From Planctomycetia bacterium (GTDB lineage Bacteria > Planctomycetota > Planctomycetia > Pirellulales > S012-138), in the NCBI GenBank assembly GCA_016177915.1, contig JACOUI010000315.1:1-45690 (forward strand): a DNA stretch of 45,690 nt, written 5' to 3'. The number at the start of each line of letters is the position of its first letter. The first letter of the stretch is position 1. The notes under the pieces were generated by a model. It was not told the DNA's origin. It saw only the letters and a program-made list of their open reading frames with translations, and did not search any database. A program made the position numbers and the translations under genes. Below, piece after piece: positions 19,445 to 41,128 of this stretch.

Positions 19445-19542
19445 GTCCTTCCCTCGCACAGTCGCCGTGCGCCAGCGGCGCACGGAATGTTCAGAGCGTC
19501 AACGTCGCCACGATCCGTGGAGCCACACACATCAGCCGAGGT

Positions 19543-19892
19543 TCATCCAACCAGCCTCCCTTGGCAACTGGAACCGGCACCGGCCGTGCAGCCGTAGCAA
19601 TGCTGGCCCGTGACGATCGGCCGTCCCCTACGGCTTCAGCAACCGGCCGGGACATGATCTCCCGGCGTTCTGGGCCCGCGTCGACGTGACAATGCCGACA
19701 GGTCTGATTGCAGAGCTTGCCAAGGTTGACCTGCAGAACCTCGACTCCCGTCGCGTGCAACGGGCCGAGGCCGTGGGCGTGGAGCGTCTTGGCGAACGAC
19801 GGGGGTGCGGGATTCTGTGGGTTCAGAAGTTGAAGTTGGTAGAGCGGCTCAGCCAGAGGACTTCCCTGTCGAAGCAATGTGGTTTGCGTCAT
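19543..19892 (-). pseudogene. arsS: arsS (arsenosugar radical SAM protein) with its middle deleted
   Basis: From the ATG at 19892 the frame encodes the ArsS N-terminus: L-Q-V-N-L-G-K-L-C-N-Q-T-C-R-H-C-H-V-D-A-G-P, with the radical-SAM C-x3-C-x2-C cluster. After M-S-R-P-V-A-E-A-V the homology jumps, in a different frame, to the extreme C-terminus P-I-V-T-G-Q-H-C-Y-G-C-T-A-G-A-G-S-S-C-Q-G and a TGA at 19545-19543. About 200 codons are missing. ArsS converts methylated arsenic toward dimethylarsinoyl sugars and is usually paired with ArsM, which is the next gene upstream here. The product cannot be functional. Confidence 0.8.
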
Positions 19893-19931
19893 CCGTGTCC
19901 CTCTCTGGGTGTTGGGCATGAAGGCAAGTGT

Positions 19932-21095
19932 TCAGCAGCAGGGACCATCTTCGCCGCAACAAGAGCCGTTCGCGTCGCTGGTCACACGATAATCGAGTCC
20001 CTTGGTCTCGCGGGGATGTCGCCGAGCCGAACGTCGGCAGTCGAACGGCTTGGCAGCCTCCGGCGGAATCGGCTCAAGCGGCTCAACCGGTTCAAAGGCG
20101 CCGGCGTAGGGATCCTGCTGCAGGAGCCGAAAGGTCTTGTCGCAAACGGCAATCCTCTCGCCACGAAAGAAAACGTGGCCGTCGTCGTCTTCGACCTTCT
20201 TGAACGGTCCGCGGTAAATGACCGCCTGGTTCCGTTCAAGGCACGGGCCCTGCTTGCCCTTGTACGCCACAACCGTCATCGACCGGAACTCGATCCCGTC
20301 CACGGTCCGCCATGGGTCGCGCTGACGTTTGACGATTTCGATCCCGTGGAAGCCGGCCTCCTTGAACGCTTGCAGGAATTTGTCCTCGCGAAACGCCCCG
20401 GAGATGCATCCCGACCACAACTTGGGATCGCGCTGCAACTCCTCGGGGACGTCTTCGTCCGAAACGATGTCGCAGATGGCCGCCCGACCTCCCCGTCGCA
20501 GCACGCGGAGCAACTCGGCGAATAGGCGCCGGCGGTCCTGAGGCCGGACCAGGTTGAGGACGCAGTTCGACACGACGCAGTCGACGCTGTCGTCGGCAAT
20601 CAGCGGCTGCTGGCCGCGAAGACGCTCTTCGATCGTCCTCATCTCCAGCCAGTCCGCGGCATCGGCGACGGGGCGGCGCCGCAATTCCGCTGCAAGGAGG
20701 TCCAAATCGAGGCGGAGGTCTTGGATCAGGCCGTGGCGGAACTCGACGTTGGCGTATCCCAACCGCTCCGCCACCGCCGGTGCGTGTTCCCGCGAGAGGG
20801 CGAGCATCTCGCGGTTGCAGTCGACGCCGACCACCCGTCCGCGCGGACCGACCACCTGGGCAAGAATGAAGCACAGTTTTCCCGCTCCCGAACCGAGGTC
20901 GAGAATGACGTCCCCCTCCGCGACGAAGGGCGTCGGATCGCCGCAGCCGTAATCCCGCTCGATGATCTCGCGCGGGATTACATCGAGGTATTTCCTGTCG
21001 TAGCTCACCGGGCAGCACAGTTCCGCCTCGACCTTGCGAGCGGCAGCTTCGTACCGGCGATGGACCGCGGACTCGGCCAAGCTCGACTCAATCAC
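19932..21095 (-). CDS. arsM: Arsenite S-adenosylmethionine methyltransferase
   Basis: 387 residues from a GTG at 21095 after AGGAGGAG. The SAM-binding motif is D-L-G-S-G-A-G-K near residue 68. Arsenic-binding cysteines of ArsM are recognisable in L-C-C-P-V-S-Y-D, in V-S-N-C-V-L-N-L and in S-G-C-I-S-G-A-F. The C-terminus ends G-S-C-C-G-E-D-G-P-C-C, a Cys-pair tail often seen in the group found with ArsS. The enzyme methylates As(III), giving volatile or sugar-linked products. It stands 39 bp upstream of broken arsS. An ECF-type promoter motif lies about 280 bp upstream (21376-21400). Confidence 0.9.
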   Translation of the reverse strand: MIESSLAESAVHRRYEAAARKVEAELCCPVSYDRKYLDVIPREIIERDYGCGDPTPFVAEGDVILDLGSGAGKLCFILAQVVGPRGRVVGVDCNREMLALSREHAPAVAERLGYANVEFRHGLIQDLRLDLDLLAAELRRRPVADAADWLEMRTIEERLRGQQPLIADDSVDCVVSNCVLNLVRPQDRRRLFAELLRVLRRGGRAAICDIVSDEDVPEELQRDPKLWSGCISGAFREDKFLQAFKEAGFHGIEIVKRQRDPWRTVDGIEFRSMTVVAYKGKQGPCLERNQAVIYRGPFKKVEDDDGHVFFRGERIAVCDKTFRLLQQDPYAGAFEPVEPLEPIPPEAAKPFDCRRSARRHPRETKGLDYRVTSDANGSCCGEDGPCC

Positions 21096-27090: not shown

Positions 27091-28908
27091 TTACGTCCGG
27101 GGATCTAGCTTCGTGGTCGCCAAAAGCGCGCGGTGCGCGCCAAAAGCGCGCGGTGCGCGACAACCGAATTCTGCAGCCAGCCATAAGAACCAGGGGGCGA
27201 ACTCCAGCCAGGTGACCACGAAATCAAAGAACAACGTCCCCTGGTAGCCGCTCCCCAGGATGGAGACGTCTTGCCAGTGGTATTGAAACCAGAAGCGGAG
27301 GTAGTACAGCATCGTCAGGCCGGACAATGCCAGCCAGGCCCGACTTCTGGAGAATGCCAAAAGCGGCAGCGCCCAGGTCCAATACCAGGGATTCTGCGTG
27401 GGCGAGAGGAGCCAGAGCCACGCCAGCGTGAGGAAGGCTGCTTCGAGAAGGACGGGCACGTCGGGCCGCCTCCAAGACCGCCACGCCAGCGCCCCAGCAA
27501 CCATCAGGAAGACGGTTGCAGTTATCAATCGCGCAATGAGGAATGCCGCCTGCGCGCCGTCGACCTTCAAGAATTGCGCAAGGTTGTCGACGACGGCGTG
27601 TCGCCAGGCATTGGGCACCACGAGAAACCAGGCGGCCGGCTGATCGGGCCGGGCCTCGCGCGGTCGAAGGTTTTCAACAACCACGAGAAACAAAAAGTCG
27701 TTCATTTCCCAGTGGCCAAAGAACGCTTGCAGCCCGCTCCGGGACGCGGGCGGCTCGGAATCAGCAGCCGGGAAAGCAGGCGGCGCCCCCGCCCGCGGCA
27801 CTGCGCCCCCCTGATTTGACGTCTGCGGTAAAGCGGCCGGTTGGGTGAAGGCCAGCGGAACAATTACCGCCGCAGAGACCAACAAGAAGGTGACGCAGAA
27901 CAGCGCCGCCGCTGCAGGCCCGCGGCGCGCCAGGAGAAAGACCACGAGGAGCGGCGCAAGCACGACGGCGAAGAGTTTTGCGCCGACGGCAAGCGCCAGC
28001 AGCGCGCCGGCCGCTGCGGGAATGGCGGATTTCAGTGTCCGTCCTGTCGTGCGCTTCTCAAAGCCCGCGCCTGCCGCCAGGCCCACAGCCGCCGTCGTGA
28101 AACAAACGGCGATTGAGTCCAAGTGCCCGCTGTTCGCAAATTCCTTCAACACGAGCGGGCACCACGCATAAACAATGAGCCACCCGGGGTGCTTGCCGGC
28201 CAGCTTCAAGAGCCGGGCGAGAATCAGCATCGTTAGGACGTCGAACACAAGCAGGACGGCCTTGAGCACGACGATACGTGCGGACACGCTGGCCGCCCTG
28301 GGCGTGAACCAGTGCGCAACCGCGAAGACGGTCTGACTCACGGGGGGATAGATTGTCGTCAGCTCGCCAAAGTTGATCCGCCGCAGGATCTCGGCGAGCG
28401 ACGGCGATGAATCGCGCACTTCCACAAGCCGCGCCAGGTCCGCCGGATGCTGCGCGGCGCTCTCCGCGGCAAGCACCTGACGCGGGGCGTAGCGGTAGGG
28501 GTTGACGCGGTTGGCCGTTGCCGCACCGTCCCAGACGTAGCGGTAGAAGTCGCCCTCCTGAATCGGCTCGGAGAACAACATCGTCGCGCGAAAGACCACC
28601 GCGGCCACGACGATCCAGGCGACAAGCGATCGGTCGGCCGGACTTCGTAGCGCGACGACCAGGGACACCAGATACAGGCCAAAACACGCAGCAAAAAGGG
28701 CCAGCACGGTGAGGATCGGGCGCTCCTGAAAACTTCTCCCGAAGGCGAAAGAACGGCTGAGGATGGCGATCGCGATCAAGAGGAGCCACTGAACGACCGC
28801 CAATCCGGCGAGGCGGATCGCTGAAGGCCGGGCGCGGTGTGGCACCCTCGCGTCCTTGCGAGGATCCGTCGCCACCAGAGCATCGTTGCCGTGCGGATCG
28901 TCGGTCAT
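27091..28908 (-). CDS. Polytopic membrane glycosyltransferase (mannosyltransferase-like, GT-C/GT87 type)
   Basis: 605 residues with about 12 membrane helices. The start at 28908 overlaps the stop of the GT2 gene (ATGA), so the two are translationally coupled. An early loop carries P-I-Q-E-G-D-F-Y-R-Y-V-W-D-G, the acidic motif expected of a polyprenyl-phosphate-sugar-dependent GT-C enzyme, and later W-C-P-L-V-L-K-E-F-A-N-S-G-H-L-D. It would use a lipid-linked sugar made by the GT2. The C-terminal 25 residues are affected by a 20-bp tandem duplication. Exact acceptor unknown. Confidence 0.8.
   Translation of the reverse strand: MTDDPHGNDALVATDPRKDARVPHRARPSAIRLAGLAVVQWLLLIAIAILSRSFAFGRSFQERPILTVLALFAACFGLYLVSLVVALRSPADRSLVAWIVVAAVVFRATMLFSEPIQEGDFYRYVWDGAATANRVNPYRYAPRQVLAAESAAQHPADLARLVEVRDSSPSLAEILRRINFGELTTIYPPVSQTVFAVAHWFTPRAASVSARIVVLKAVLLVFDVLTMLILARLLKLAGKHPGWLIVYAWCPLVLKEFANSGHLDSIAVCFTTAAVGLAAGAGFEKRTTGRTLKSAIPAAAGALLALAVGAKLFAVVLAPLLVVFLLARRGPAAAALFCVTFLLVSAAVIVPLAFTQPAALPQTSNQGGAVPRAGAPPAFPAADSEPPASRSGLQAFFGHWEMNDFLFLVVVENLRPREARPDQPAAWFLVVPNAWRHAVVDNLAQFLKVDGAQAAFLIARLITATVFLMVAGALAWRSWRRPDVPVLLEAAFLTLAWLWLLSPTQNPWYWTWALPLLAFSRSRAWLALSGLTMLYYLRFWFQYHWQDVSILGSGYQGTLFFDFVVTWLEFAPWFLWLAAEFGCRAPRAFGAHRALLATTKLDPRT
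27121..27160. repeat. 20-bp tandem duplication at the end of the GT-C gene
   Basis: CAAAAGCGCGCGGTGCGCGC is repeated with one final mismatch (27121-27140, 27141-27160). As 20 is not a multiple of 3, the insertion changed the reading frame of the last codons and so the C-terminus. Confidence 0.85.
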
Positions 28909-31641: not shown

Positions 31642-33591
31642 TCAACGTCTGGTGCGTACGCCCGTGGTGTCGGCCCGTTGTGCGTCGTTACGCGACGGGC
31701 CCGCCTTTTGCAAAGCGTCGATGATCGGTTGCGGCGAAGCGAACAGGCCGTCGAGCAGGATCGGCTGGTTTGGGTTTCCTGCCGGAAAGACCGCGTAGAA
31801 CGGGATCGAGCCAGCTTTGTTGCCCAACCGCTGAAGCAGATCGTCCACCTCGGGGGCCGGATGCGTCTTATCAGCTTTGAGCGTGACGATGCCGTTGGCT
31901 TCGACGAACCGGCGTGTTGCGGTGTGGTTCAAGGCCGCCGCTTCGTTCGCTTTGCACGTCAAGCACCAATCAGCCGTGAAGTCAACCAAAACCGTCTTGC
32001 CTGCGGACGTGTACCTGGCCAACAACTCGTGAGAATACGGCTGCCACGGCAACTCGTTATTGTCGCGTTGGCTGGAAGTCGCGTCCTGAGCGGAAGCCAC
32101 GTGGCGCGCTGCAAGCGACCGATCGACCTCGCGATCAAAGCGGCTCTTCATCACGCCGTGCAGCCAACCGAATGAAACGAAACCTGCGGCGGCCGCGATG
32201 GCGGCAGCCTGGATCCACACGCGCGCCTTGGCATTCAGGCTTGCGGTCGACAAGGTGCGGCCGATCCACCAGCAGGCGGCCCCTAGGCCGATCATGAAAG
32301 CGACAGCGGGAACAACATACGGGATGAGCATGAAACTCAGCAGGTAAGCCACCGTGGCCAGCATCACGAACCCGAGGATGTGTTTGAACGTGTTCATCCA
32401 CTCGCCGGGCTTCGGCAGGAAAGCGATCAGCTTCGGAAACGCGCCGACGAGCAGGTAGGGACTGGCCATGCCAATTCCGACGAAGGCAAAGACCAGGTAG
32501 GTGAGCAGCGGCGGCTGAGTGACCGCCCACGTGAGCGCCGAACCCAGCAGCGGGCCGCTGCAGGGAGTGGCCAGCACGGTCGTGAGCACGCCCTTGCTGA
32601 AGGCGCCGACCGCCCCTTCCCGGTGTGCCAAGTCGCCAGCCGCGCCTGATCCCACAAAGCCTGGAATCGGGATTTCCCAGATCCCCAGGAAACTCAGCCC
32701 GAAAACAAACACGATGGCGGCGAGGACGATGTTGAACGTGACGCTGCTGAACTGTTGGCCCCAGCCCAGTCCCAAGAACGCCGCTAGAGTCGCCAATACG
32801 AGAAACACCGACATCATTCCCAGGGAATACCAGAGGTTCAGCACGAACACTCGGCCGCGGCTGTCACCCGCCTGCTGAGCGAAGGCCATGATCTTCAAGC
32901 CAATCACCGGCAGCACGCACGGCATGAGGTTGAGAATGAACCCCGCGGCAAACGCCATTGGCAACACGATGAACAACGGCAGCGTGCTGGCCGAAGGGTT
33001 TGCTGCTTCCAGCTTGTTGAAGTCCAGCGGCGCCTGCGTGGGATTTTCGCTGGGGGCGCCGGCGGCCTCGGTGCGCGCGGTAAGATCACGGTTGTCGACG
33101 TTCAACTTGGCGGTAAACGGATGCTTTTTCGGCGGCAGGCATCCCTGGTCGTGACACGCCTGGACCAACAGGTGTCCGGAAATCGTCAAGTCACGGGGAT
33201 CGACGGCGTCCGCAATCCTTAATGGAGTGGTCCAAGTGACGGCGCCTTCGTACTCGTGCAGCTCAACGTCGATCGACTTGTGTCGCAGCGCGATCGCAGG
33301 ACGGGATGGCCTGAACGCCTCAGACACTTCAACCTGGTCGGACGGTTCGATGTGAATCTGGGTCGCCAAGAACGGCTTGGGCTGCGTCATCGCATAAATG
33401 TGGTACCCATCGCGGATGGTTGCCGTGACCGACAGCTCGCCGGTCCGGGCGCCTTCGTTCACGGAGAACTCTGCGCGGACAGTGACCACCGCCTCGGCGT
33501 CGGCCGGACCTTTCGCCGGCAATTGAGCGTGAGAGGTCCCCGCACAAAGCGTTGCGACAAGCACGTACAACGCGAACCACGTGAAGCGCAT
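31642..33591 (-). CDS. dsbD: Thiol:disulfide interchange protein DsbD
   Basis: 649 residues. A signal peptide (to about residue 22) leads to the periplasmic N-terminal domain with A-C-H-D-Q-G-C-L-P-P, whose cysteines relay electrons. About eight membrane helices follow, with the paired-Cys helices N-L-M-P-C-V-L-P-V-I-G and T-P-C-S-G-P-L-L-G. A C-terminal thioredoxin domain has D-W-C-L-T-C-K near residue 540. The full relay is intact. It transfers electrons from cytosolic thioredoxin to the periplasm, where the many Cys-rich exported proteins of this window would need it. The ribosome site at 33591 is weak. The last 20 residues are variable in character. Confidence 0.92.
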   Translation of the reverse strand: MRFTWFALYVLVATLCAGTSHAQLPAKGPADAEAVVTVRAEFSVNEGARTGELSVTATIRDGYHIYAMTQPKPFLATQIHIEPSDQVEVSEAFRPSRPAIALRHKSIDVELHEYEGAVTWTTPLRIADAVDPRDLTISGHLLVQACHDQGCLPPKKHPFTAKLNVDNRDLTARTEAAGAPSENPTQAPLDFNKLEAANPSASTLPLFIVLPMAFAAGFILNLMPCVLPVIGLKIMAFAQQAGDSRGRVFVLNLWYSLGMMSVFLVLATLAAFLGLGWGQQFSSVTFNIVLAAIVFVFGLSFLGIWEIPIPGFVGSGAAGDLAHREGAVGAFSKGVLTTVLATPCSGPLLGSALTWAVTQPPLLTYLVFAFVGIGMASPYLLVGAFPKLIAFLPKPGEWMNTFKHILGFVMLATVAYLLSFMLIPYVVPAVAFMIGLGAACWWIGRTLSTASLNAKARVWIQAAAIAAAAGFVSFGWLHGVMKSRFDREVDRSLAARHVASAQDATSSQRDNNELPWQPYSHELLARYTSAGKTVLVDFTADWCLTCKANEAAALNHTATRRFVEANGIVTLKADKTHPAPEVDDLLQRLGNKAGSIPFYAVFPAGNPNQPILLDGLFASPQPIIDALQKAGPSRNDAQRADTTGVRTRR

Positions 33592-33884
33592 GTTGACCCG
33601 TGGAAAAGAGTGTTCGTTGCGTGCCGTCCTGGCTTCCGTGTACCCAAAGCCGGTTGTCTGGCCGCAGCAGCAGCGGCGCGATCGGCTGTCCCGGTTGGCA
33701 GTCGCGCTGTGCGATTGCCTGAGCGACCACGAGAAGAGGCGTTTGGGATCGAGTCATCGAGCTCCCAGAACTGGTTGGCGAATGTGGGCCGGTTGAGAGC
33801 TCTGTGACTCGACCCCAGCAACCCAACTCGTACCCGCAACCTTGCAGCCTCTGGGGCGGCAAGCATGGGCGCTTGTCGCCGCGT

Positions 33885-34808
33885 CTATTCGACCACCTTC
33901 AACTGCGACGGCTGAATCCAGACGATCTTCCCGCTCCGTTTCAACACCTTGCCGGTGACTTCGAGCGCCAACCCCTCGAACCTCTGTTCGTACACCTTGG
34001 GATACAGCTTGTGGGCGTCTTCGACGACGTAGACCTGGCCGTCGGCCGCATTGACGGCCAAGCCCAGCTCGTTCGGTGAACCGATCGGCACCACGCCGTG
34101 ATCGCAACCCGCACAGCCACTCTTGCCTTGGACCGTCACGAACGGCTCGGCGGCGGCCCGCGTCGACGCCTGTTTGTTCGCGGCCGGCTGTGCGGCGTAC
34201 TTGGCTGGATTGGCCAGGAACATTTCACGCTGCTTTTCCGAGGGGAACAGGTACCGCAGTCCCTGATGCACGACGGCGATCTCCGGCTTGCCCGGCACAT
34301 CCTTCTTCATCTCGACTCGACAGACGGCACAATTGCCGTCCAGCGCCAGGTCGACGTTGGCGTACTGGTCGGGATGGGCCTGAAATTCTTTCTCCTGCTC
34401 GTCGCTGGGAAACAAGAACAGCCGGTGTTCGTGCAGGAGCGCGTTGCCGATCTTGCCCGGCACTCGCTTGCCCATCTTGGCGTAACACACGGTGCAGTCG
34501 CCACCGAGGGCCGGCACGTACTTGGCCGGATTGGCGAGGAACATGTCCTTCTGCTGCTTGCCGGGGAAATAGTACGTCTTGCCGTCGTAGGTCGCCTGGT
34601 GCCGCGGATCGCCCTGGACCCACTTCTGCATCTCCACAACGCAGACCGCGCAGTGCCCATCCAGGGCAACGTCGCTCTTGGTGCCTTGGGTCTTCGAGCC
34701 CGCTTGCGCCCGAACCACAGCAGCGCTGCTCAGCGCGATCGACAGCGCAGCGAGGGCCAAAAAAGTTGCGGCGAACGCAGGATGATTGCGGCGAAGAGTC
34801 TTCAACAT
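33885..34808 (-). CDS. Exported protein with three YHS-like Cys repeats and a C-terminal CxxC domain
   Basis: 307 residues, start at 34808 behind GAGGAG; signal peptide ends near A-Q-A. Three repeats follow, each of the form G-x-C-x-V-C-x-x-x-M, a short loop, a Y/L-F-P strand, then F-x-A-N/H-P-x-x-Y: about residues 50-96, 102-150 and 155-205. They resemble YHS/TRASH metal-binding modules. A last domain has S-G-C-A-G-C-D-H-G-V and a beta-rich end. The Cys pairs suggest binding of Cu or another soft metal in the periplasm. It sits between dsbD and the peroxiredoxin gene on the same strand. Confidence 0.8.
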   Translation of the reverse strand: MLKTLRRNHPAFAATFLALAALSIALSSAAVVRAQAGSKTQGTKSDVALDGHCAVCVVEMQKWVQGDPRHQATYDGKTYYFPGKQQKDMFLANPAKYVPALGGDCTVCYAKMGKRVPGKIGNALLHEHRLFLFPSDEQEKEFQAHPDQYANVDLALDGNCAVCRVEMKKDVPGKPEIAVVHQGLRYLFPSEKQREMFLANPAKYAAQPAANKQASTRAAAEPFVTVQGKSGCAGCDHGVVPIGSPNELGLAVNAADGQVYVVEDAHKLYPKVYEQRFEGLALEVTGKVLKRSGKIVWIQPSQLKVVE

Positions 34809-34894
34809 CTCGATCTCCTCATTGGGTTAAATTTGGAACAGGAACGACGTTTGAAAGTCTGACGCGGGCAGTCGCGGACAAAACCGGACGACGA

Positions 34895-35570
34895 TCAGCC
34901 GCTAAGCCGCTGGAGCGCCGCAGTCACGTCAGCCGGTTCGGCACGCTTCGTGTAGTCGGTGTTCACGAACGCAAAGCGGATGGTTCGATTGCGGTCGATG
35001 ACATACGTAGCCGGGACAGGCAACTCGTAGGTCTCGTCCCCGTTCTGCTTCGGAAGGTCGATTCCGAACTGCCCGTAGAGATGGCGCAGCTCCGGGGGCA
35101 GCGAGAAAACGAGTCCGAACTGCCGGGCCACCCTGTTCCCGCGGTCGCTCAACACCGGGAACTGGAGAGCGTGTTTTTCTGCCGTGGCGAGCGAGTTGTC
35201 GGGCGTCTCCGGCGATACGGCAACCAGCGTCGCACCGAACCGCTTGAACTCCGGCAGCGCCTGTTGCAGGGCCCGCAAGTTCGAGGTTGCAGTACGGGCA
35301 CCAGCCGCCTCGGTAGAAACTCAGGACGACCGGCCCCCGCCTGAGCAGTTCATCCAGCCGCACTGTGTCGCCGTCCGCGCCGGGCAACTCGAAGGCGGGG
35401 GCCTTTTCGCCGACGCCCAGGCTTCGCTCAGCGACGCCGGAACGGGCCAGTTCCTCGGCCTGATCCACCATGACCTGGCGCACCTCCACCGGAGCCTGTT
35501 TTGCGAAGGCTTCTTGAAGTTCACGCAGTTGATCGTTGAGGGGGGCGTCCGTGCATCGTGTCTCAGGCAT
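34895..35570 (-). pseudogene. Peroxiredoxin-like (AhpC/TSA) gene with a single-base frameshift
   Basis: The start at 35570 follows GAGGAG. The first frame encodes the N-terminal helix and the redoxin core to F-Y-R-G-G-W-C-P-Y-C-N-L-E-L, then runs out of phase at 35279-35282, where GAACTTGCGG should read GAACTGCGG. The second frame continues without a break: R-A-L-Q-Q-A-L-P-E-F-K...V-S-P-E-T-P-D-N-S, ending at 34895. Removing one T restores a normal protein of about 224 residues. Either a sequencing error or a fresh mutation. Intact members reduce peroxides with thioredoxin, encoded next door. Confidence 0.85.
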
Positions 35571-35712
35571 TTGAGGTACTCCTCAATGGTGAAGCGTCCA
35601 GGTACCGGTTCGTTCCCGTGGGGAGAGAAGCCAGGCTCCTCGGTTCGAGCATCACGCTGACGCATGCCTTCTGCTGTCAACCATCAGCCGACCGGGAACC
35701 GCAGCCGCGGGA

Positions 35713-36081
35713 TCAGCTCATCCGATTCACGACAACCGTCTTGCCCTCCGCCGTAAGCGATTTCAGGTAGGGTTTCACGGCCTCCACGAGCACCTGCTTG
35801 GGACGGAAGCCGATCAAGCGGGCTTTCACCTGGCCGCCGTTGACGATCACGACATGGGGAATCGACGAGATTCCGTATCTCGCAGCAGCATGAGGCGCTC
35901 GGCCCACATCCACCTTGACGACCTTGAGCTGCCCGTCGTACTCGCTGGCGATTTCGTCCACGATCGGGCTTTGCGCCCTGCAAGGGCCGCACCACGGCGC
36001 CCAGAAGTCGACCAACACCGGCACCTCCGACTGCAGGACTTCGGCGTCAAAGTTGGCGTCGTTGCAGGCAATGGGATTCAT
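35713..36081 (-). CDS. Thioredoxin
   Basis: 122 residues, start at 36081 after AGGAAG. The core reads V-L-V-D-F-W-A-P-W-C-G-P-C-R with the active-site cysteines at 31 and 34, and the cis-Pro loop is S-S-I-P-H-V-V. The C-terminus is longer than usual by about 12 residues. No signal peptide, so cytosolic. The FTR-like gene 75 bp upstream probably supplies its electrons, and the peroxiredoxin and DsbD genes downstream are likely clients. Confidence 0.93.
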   Translation of the reverse strand: MNPIACNDANFDAEVLQSEVPVLVDFWAPWCGPCRAQSPIVDEIASEYDGQLKVVKVDVGRAPHAAARYGISSIPHVVIVNGGQVKARLIGFRPKQVLVEAVKPYLKSLTAEGKTVVVNRMS

Positions 36082-36156
36082 GTTCCGTCTTCCTGTGGGT
36101 TGTGATTTTCGTCGCGACATGCTGCCGGCGGGCCGTCCAGATGCAGGCACTCGTTG

Positions 36157-36564
36157 CTACGCGGCCTCGACGTGGCGCCGCGCTTCGCGACCTTTGTCCG
36201 GAGCCGGGTCATTAACGACCCCGTAGATTTCGCGTCCTTCATGGCCGTCTGGCAGGTGTTCCGTGATGGGCAGGCCCTCCGGCGTGACGAACAGCAAGCA
36301 ATGGCAATACTTGTACTGCTTCATCTCGTCGCACGCGCAAACCCACCGGCGGCTCTGCTCGACGTCGGTCTGCTTGTCGAGATAGAAATTGCACGGACAC
36401 AGCGGCCGTCCCACCTCGTCCACGTTTTGTGCAAGTCCCAGCACGACCGACTCCGTCACGGCCGCATTCGGATGCGCCGACGTGCCCGTCTTCCGTCGGT
36501 ACTTCGCGACGTAGCTTCTGATCCGCGCAATCGCTGCATCGGATGGCGGCGGTGCTGTCGTCAT
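36157..36564 (-). CDS. Ferredoxin-thioredoxin reductase catalytic-chain-like protein
   Basis: 135 residues, start at 36564 after GAAGGGACC. The three FTR Cys motifs are in order: C-P-C at 56-58, C-A-C at 76-78 and C-H-C at 87-89, with the redox-active and 4Fe-4S ligands conserved; the middle motif is usually C-P-C. The end K-Y-C-H-C-L-L-F-V-T-P-E-G-L-P-I-T-E is typical. In plants the enzyme reduces thioredoxin with ferredoxin. Here it adjoins a thioredoxin gene in a presumably non-photosynthetic host. An ECF-type promoter lies 40 bp upstream. Confidence 0.88.
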   Translation of the reverse strand: MTTAPPPSDAAIARIRSYVAKYRRKTGTSAHPNAAVTESVVLGLAQNVDEVGRPLCPCNFYLDKQTDVEQSRRWVCACDEMKQYKYCHCLLFVTPEGLPITEHLPDGHEGREIYGVVNDPAPDKGREARRHVEAA

Positions 36565-39745: not shown

Positions 39746-40081
39746 GGAAGGCTCCCTTTACTGGCTCGGGCGACTTGCCCTCTCACCAGGTTGACGGCTG
39801 GCAGCCGAATTCCTTACGAACCGCGTCCTGCTCGCAACCAGCCTCGTTGGCTGCACGTGCTGCTGGTGAGCGGAATTTCGAGTCGTCTGGGTGGCTCGGG
39901 CGGCCAGTCGTCCAGCGTGCGCCCTGGTGATGCCCGACACGGCGATCCCGATTTCCAGTCTTCGACGTGTGACCTTGTTCACAGACATGCCGAGGCGCTT
40001 CCCTCAGAATGCCAGAATCATCGCACTGCGGCAGTTCGTGCGAGGCGGGTTTCCAAGCCAACAAGATCAAAGGAGCACGCG
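39746..40081. other. Divergent intergenic region
   Basis: 336 bp between the leftward sigma operon and the rightward DUF3179 gene. It holds the ECF-type motif at 39793-39817 near its left end. On the right, AAAGGAGCACGCG directly precedes the DUF3179 ATG. No plus-strand promoter was identified with confidence. Confidence 0.5.
39793..39817 (-). promoter_or_regulatory. ECF-type promoter motif (site 5), upstream of the sigma operon
   Basis: GTAAGGA (39817-39811), N14, CGTC (39796-39793). Nearly identical to site 1. It would drive the membrane protein, the basic protein, the ECF sigma and its anti-sigma. Confidence 0.7.
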
Positions 40082-41128
40082 ATGTCAGGAGATCAAGCGC
40101 GCCGCTGGCTGGTCGTCGCCGTGGCCATCGGCGCCTGCGCCGCCATTTGGGGGATTCGCGCCGTCGGAAACCCCCAGTCGAAGGATCGCCAAACGCGCGA
40201 CGCCACAGACCCGCAGCCCAGGTTCGCGCCGCAAGTCGTCGTGCAACCCTTTCCGCCGATCGTCGACGCGCCCGTGATTGCGGCAAGGAAAGTGAGTTCG
40301 CAGGTCCACGACAACGAACTGGTGCTGGGTGTGGTTGTCAACGGGGAAGCGCGAGCGTACCCCATCAACATGCTCACCGGGCCCATGCGGGAGATCATCA
40401 ACGACAAGCTCGGCGGCCGCGCGATCGCCGCCACGTGGTGACATCTCTGCCACAACGGCGTGGTCTACGCCCGATCGGTCAAGGATCAAACCCTCACGTT
40501 CTACGTCTCCGGCCAGCTTTGGAGGAGCAGCCTGGTCATGGCCGACGCCGAGACGAAGTCGCTCTGGAGCCACATCCTGGGCGAGGCGATGGACGGGAAG
40601 CTCAAGGGGACGGTGCTGGAGAGCATCGCGTCGGAAATGGTCACGTGGAAAGCGTGGCGAGAGCAGCACCCGGATTCGACGGTGCTAAACCTCGACCGGA
40701 CGAGTCGGGAATACTCCAAGGAATTCTACCGCCAGCCCAAGCAGTTCGTGTTTGCGTTCATGGTAAACGGCAAGCCGCACCACTGCACTTTTGCGACCAT
40801 GCGTTCGCGGCCGATGCTTAGTTTGAAGATTGGCGACGAGCCGCTCCTGTTGACCTTTGATTCGCAAAGTACATCGGCAAGGCTCTACTCTCGACGTTTG
40901 GACGGCCGCGAACTGACTTTCGCGGAGGTCAATGAAGGCCGTTTGAAGGACGACGAGACCGGCTCGATCTGGAACCGCGGGACCGGGCTGGCGTTGGAAG
41001 GCCCGCTCAAGGGCAAGTATCTGGACGCCAAGGTTGGCGTCGTCAGCTACACGCAGGTGTGGCGGGAATTTCACCCCAAGAGCCAGGCCATCGAAGCAGG
41101 CGGCGCCCAAAGGGGGGCCGAGAAATAG
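40082..41128 (+). CDS. DUF3179-domain protein with an in-frame TGA, probable selenoprotein
   Basis: Start at 40082 after AAAGGAG. The frame runs 348 codons to 41128 with one internal TGA at codon 120 (40439-40441). Residues 8-27 form a membrane anchor or signal. The DUF3179 domain runs through both sides of the TGA: G-E-A-R-A-Y-P-I-N-M-L-T-G and N-D-K-L-G-G before it; H-N-G-V-V-Y-A, S-L-V-M-A-D-A-E-T-K-S-L-W-S and L-G-E-A-M-D after it. The TGA follows T-W and precedes H-L-C, so it takes the place of the first Cys in the family motif W-C-x-L-C. A hairpin of bacterial SECIS type follows (40457-40471). If TGA is read as selenocysteine this is a full-length U-x-x-C redox or metal-site protein; otherwise a nonsense pseudogene. 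Family function is unknown. Confidence 0.8.
40457..40471 (+). promoter_or_regulatory. Candidate bacterial SECIS hairpin of the DUF3179 gene
   Basis: GGCGT pairs perfectly with ACGCC around the loop GGTCT. The loop begins 20 nt after the TGA and opens with GG. Bacterial SECIS elements typically have an apical loop some 16-37 nt after TGA with G in the first two positions; the Escherichia coli fdhF loop is AGGUCU. Confidence 0.6.

Follow-up and report, generated by a model that had tools for sequence, protein, structure and literature searches.

The reading frame of a DUF3179-family gene in a planctomycete genome is broken once, by a TGA at codon 120, and the question raised by this locus is whether that codon terminates the protein or is read as selenocysteine (Sec). 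The window analysed here is the whole 45,690-nucleotide stretch of DNA that carries the gene; within it, the frame opens with ATG at 40082 and closes with TAG at 41126-41128, and the TGA is its sole internal stop (Table 1). An earlier note on this DNA had proposed that a single DUF3179 frame runs across the TGA, and this is borne out by both the profile match and the codon composition. The read-through product matches PF11376 (DUF3179) over residues 57-333 with an E-value of 1e-58 and a score of 199.5 bits, against a Pfam gathering cut-off of 27, which makes it a member of the family; NCBIfam models gave no match to the protein. Third-position GC content is 0.815 upstream of the TGA and 0.807 downstream, and substitutions relative to three relatives cluster at third positions on both sides. 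On the sequence evidence assembled here, we put the probability that 40082-41128 encodes a DUF3179-family selenoprotein, with the in-frame UGA decoded as Sec, at roughly 0.95.

Table 1. Features of the predicted DUF3179 selenoprotein gene and of the thiol-redox gene row in the window.
Feature	Position	Strand	Details
Ribosome-binding site AAGGAG	40070..40075	+	6 nt before ATG; sequence
DUF3179 selenoprotein gene (predicted)	40082..41128	+	348 aa, UGA read as Sec; translation, Pfam, AlphaFold2
N-terminal hydrophobic helix, probable signal or membrane anchor	40091..40162	+	residues 4-27; model; sequence RRWLVVAVAIGACAAIWGI
First DUF3179 repeat	40244..40717	+	residues 55-212, bears Sec120-x-x-Cys123; profile match to second repeat
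UGA codon 120, read as Sec (predicted)	40439..40441	+	48 loci TGA, 26 loci TGC/TGT
Bacterial SECIS-type hairpin	40457..40471	+	5-bp stem GGCGU/ACGCC, loop GGUCU, 20 nt after UGA
Second DUF3179 repeat	40718..41095	+	residues 213-338, without Sec/Cys; equivalent stretch is LLTFDSQSTS
Ferredoxin-thioredoxin reductase beta chain	36157-36564	-	
Thioredoxin	35713-36081	-	
Peroxiredoxin	about 34895-35570	-	
YHS (seleno)protein-family member	33885-34808	-	without in-frame stop
DsbD-like protein with thioredoxin domain	31642-33591	-	

Alignment of related genes places the TGA at the conserved first Cys of the motif TW-C-x-L-C, here TW-U-HLC, as had been proposed. Close relatives carry either Cys or TGA at this codon, which is the result that the earlier note had anticipated for homologues: among the aligned loci, 48 have TGA, 19 TGC and 7 TGT (26 Cys in all), counts that leave out a fragment (L044) and the distant paralogues L043, L045, L046 and L047, in which codon 120 is Phe or Tyr. 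One of these paralogues, L047 (G000:C104:23614-24036), is a second, diverged DUF3179-like protein of the same genome, with neither Cys nor Sec at the site. In related planctomycetes, genome searches turned up numerous DUF3179 genes interrupted by one internal TGA; loci with TGA at codon 120 are spread over many families across the phylum, with the frame open on both sides, and TGA is present in the majority of the sampled phylum-wide matches above E 1e-30. In the closest relative (L050, G324:C193:55216-56106), the match is listed with two TGAs, one of them at codon 120.

All 57 aligned proteins have Cys or Sec at residue 120, the criterion on which the set was picked, and the invariance of this residue is a property of the aligned set only. 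The second Cys of the motif, Cys123, is substituted in 6 of the 57; 4 of the 48 Sec forms have Ala or Thr in its place. Since position 120 is kept throughout while Cys123 can be replaced, it is apparently residue 120 that is essential, and not the Sec/Cys120-Cys123 pair. The description of the locus as a Sec-for-Cys exchange in a CxxC-like site thus stands for the first position, where Sec120 occupies a conserved Cys, and falls short for the second in those Sec forms that have Ala or Thr there.

The hairpin noted downstream of the TGA is present in the sequence as a perfect 5-bp stem. In the bacterial SECIS consensus, as set out in PMC13188914, the UGA is followed after 16-37 nt by a small apical loop that has G as its first or second base. 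The hairpin described here resembles this consensus in that its loop opens with GG, at a distance of 20 nt and within the coding sequence; nothing in it falls outside the model, while the 5-bp stem is short. Taken alone, the hairpin is weak evidence, because 56% of the TGA triplets in the whole window satisfy a loose bSECIS pattern. Its exact geometry is found at 2 of 1104 window TGAs, this one among them; other window TGAs with a SECIS-like hairpin fall in chance frames and were rejected as Sec sites. Single-sequence folding is unremarkable, with a local stability against shuffles of z -0.26; the minimum-energy fold takes other pairs, and the centroid includes the hairpin.

Comparison across the family is far more informative. 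All five pairs form at the same position in 45 of 48 TGA genes and in none of 24 distinct Cys genes, and the observed pairing was reached in 0 of 10000 permutations. The Cys proteins (for example L003-L006, L032 and L052) share the fold and the site and use TGC or TGT; their genes differ in being without the perfect hairpin. In 35 TGA sequences the hairpin covariation score was 0.605, compared with 0.232 for shuffled sequences and no more than 0.155 with slid partners; 98.9% of cells pair, with changes on both sides in 4 of the 5 pairs. The loop is nearly fixed in the family, being CGUGU or GGUCU in 45 of 48. The structure fits the bSECIS model and is conserved among the Sec forms. We regard conservation, that is the TGA at the same codon in 48 loci together with the covariation of the hairpin, as the decisive evidence for predicted Sec decoding.

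A maximum-likelihood tree of the 57 proteins implies at least 7 switches between Sec and Cys when only well-supported branches are counted; the best tree has 10. The hairpin changes in the same direction as the TGA in 7 of 7 independent pairs (sign test, p 0.016), and this tracking across seven independent pairs was recovered in nearly all pairings tried. Such a pattern is predicted by Sec insertion and not by a stop codon, a sequencing error or a pseudogene. The repeated switching, with gain and loss of the hairpin, also supplies natural pairs in which to test what selenium adds.

The source genome, a draft assembly whose 387 contigs total 6.03 Mb, is 93% complete. It encodes SelA (557.7 bits), SelB (358 bits) with the C-terminal SECIS-binding winged helix SelB-wing_3, and a tRNA-Sec (selC; 70.5 bits) with anticodon tca. 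SelB and this tRNA-Sec would decode UGA codon 120 as Sec, directed by the hairpin inside the coding sequence 20 nt downstream, such that Sec is predicted to be inserted at residue 120. Of the sel genes named in the earlier note, selA, selB and selC are present; SelD was not found in the 93%-complete assembly, and two weak SelD matches were rejected as ThiL-like and PurM-like. Among genomes with the TGA form, selD is present in 18 of 19 and selA in 18 of 19, and the only three genomes without both selA and selD carry Cys-form DUF3179. Because 18 of the 19 Sec-form genomes have selD, the best explanation for its absence here would be that the gene lies in sequence missing from the assembly. The SelD genes of several Sec-form relatives (L104-L108, in G029, G003, G004, G287 and G002) each contain one in-frame TGA, and SelD is probably itself a selenoprotein in these organisms. 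A second selenoprotein was sought among the formate dehydrogenase alpha homologues of the source genome, which are without an in-frame stop.

An AlphaFold2 model of the read-through protein is all-beta and confident (mean pLDDT 92.6), apart from a helix at residues 4-27, which suggests that the protein may be exported or membrane-anchored. Profile comparison reveals that the two halves of the domain are homologous (residues ~75-202 against ~217-337, probability 99.9, E 7.7e-34); DUF3179 is internally duplicated, and of the two repeats only the first carries the Sec/Cys site. Modelled alone, the first repeat reaches a pLDDT of 97. No relatives were found in the PDB by sequence, and no solved structure matched the DUF3179 model significantly by fold. 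Rieske-type domains (PDB 5bok, 5cxm and 3gce) bear a weak resemblance in beta-fold, with Foldseek probabilities up to 1.0 and TM scores up to 0.62 by target; the Foldseek E-values are not significant and are weaker still for the single repeat. Homology to these domains was rejected on profile comparison (E 0.1-0.6), and the C-x-H ... C-x-x-H ligand set of Rieske proteins is absent. The sole significant viral match by fold was an uncharacterised giant-virus protein from Indivirus ILV1 (BFVD A0A1V0SD44, E 1.2e-7).

With these data in hand, other readings of the TGA can be weighed. Were it a real stop, the locus would be a pseudogene or encode a short protein, and translation of the downstream part would start anew at GTG 40460, where the ORF list does place a separate 222-aa frame. 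The recurrence of TGA at codon 120 in many families, with frames open on either side, the equal codon-position constraint before and after it and the tracking of TGA by the hairpin make this very improbable; moreover, since the first repeat folds alone in the model, termination at codon 120 would truncate a domain. An error in sequencing or assembly, with TGC or TGT as the true codon, was among the refutations that the earlier note had named, to be seen in the reads. The draft state of the 387-contig assembly leaves room for it, and the nearby peroxiredoxin gene, whose frame is broken by one base, shows that errors or lesions do arise. The same TGA in 48 loci, with the hairpin beside TGA only and never beside TGC or TGT, is not credibly explained by misreading, and we consider the chance of an error here to be minimal.

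If UGA were decoded as a residue other than Sec, such as Cys or the Trp of code 4, or if read-through were general and needed no selenium, the failure to find SelD in the source assembly would be in keeping with it. Either is nonetheless highly unlikely, as UGA exchanges with Cys codons and not with Trp, SelA, SelB and tRNA-Sec are present, and the hairpin, which covaries and keeps a fixed spacing, conforms to the bSECIS model (PMC13188914). Sec insertion at codon 120 is by comparison very likely, given the exchange of TGA with Cys codons, the covarying hairpin and the presence of selA, selB and selC.

The suspicion that Sec members of the family had already been annotated proved correct. DUF3179 is listed as a UxxC/T selenoprotein family in PMC9312934, whose relevant passage cites Zhang and Gladyshev 2007 (its reference 63, the 2007 Olavius symbiont study), and again in a passage of PMC13188914; a product name in use at NCBI is 'DUF3179 domain-containing (seleno)protein'. 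The planctomycete protein shares with this family the Pfam domain, the in-frame UGA and the UxxC/T motif, here U-H-L-C; the reference DUF3179 selenoproteins in those passages come from other bacteria. The passages naming the family assign it no function. The gene is not new in kind: with an in-frame TGA aligned to Cys in homologues and selA, selB and selC in the genome, it is a well-supported further member of a catalogued selenium family. What the present analysis adds is the internal duplication, the stricter keeping of Sec/Cys120 relative to Cys123, and the N-terminal helix; the model and repeat analysis single out residue 120, in the first repeat, as a target for mutation. Because standard gene callers split 40082-41128 at the TGA, many DUF3179 selenoproteins of planctomycetes probably stand in annotations as fragments.

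Sec at a Cys site normally indicates redox catalysis. By analogy, Sec120 may act as a redox-active nucleophile, often partnered by Cys123, and the N-terminal helix of the model suggests a role at the cell envelope. The class we favour, at about even odds, is an envelope oxidoreductase of the thiol-disulfide or peroxide type. On the minus strand of the window, a row of thiol-redox genes occupies 31642-36564; in its peroxiredoxin gene the frame slips by one base right after GWCPYCNLEL, near 35280, and the gene is either broken or mis-sequenced. This row backs a redox reading of DUF3179 only slightly, because the arrangement is not kept among 18 relatives: no neighbour is common to more than a few of them, and no conserved operon was found, apart from partial synteny in one (L121, G216:C3:3802000-3817000).

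In that relative, genes for ArsS, ArsM, a TGA-bearing DUF3179 protein, DUF547 and a membrane protein resembling window 27169-28827 lie on one strand; its DUF3179 gene adjoins the DUF547 gene, near homologues of arsM and arsS that are also present in the window. As a lead, the synteny suggests that DUF3179 may be connected with arsenosugar-type genes. A more elaborate proposal, in which DUF3179 would be a duplicated beta-fold redox domain of distantly Rieske-like shape, with the first-repeat Sec/Cys as nucleophile and Cys123 optional, serving an envelope arsenic/thiol pathway, is hinted at by the nearby ArsM/ArsS, DUF547, DsbD, thioredoxin and ferredoxin-thioredoxin reductase genes; we consider it speculative and improbable. 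Within the window, the arsenic genes lie at 19491-21095 on the minus strand, where an ArsM-like arsenite methyltransferase (19932-21095) adjoins a partial ArsS gene (TIGR04167), of which the N-terminal part only is present, at about 19593-19892, before it breaks off and a CsrA-like frame comes next.
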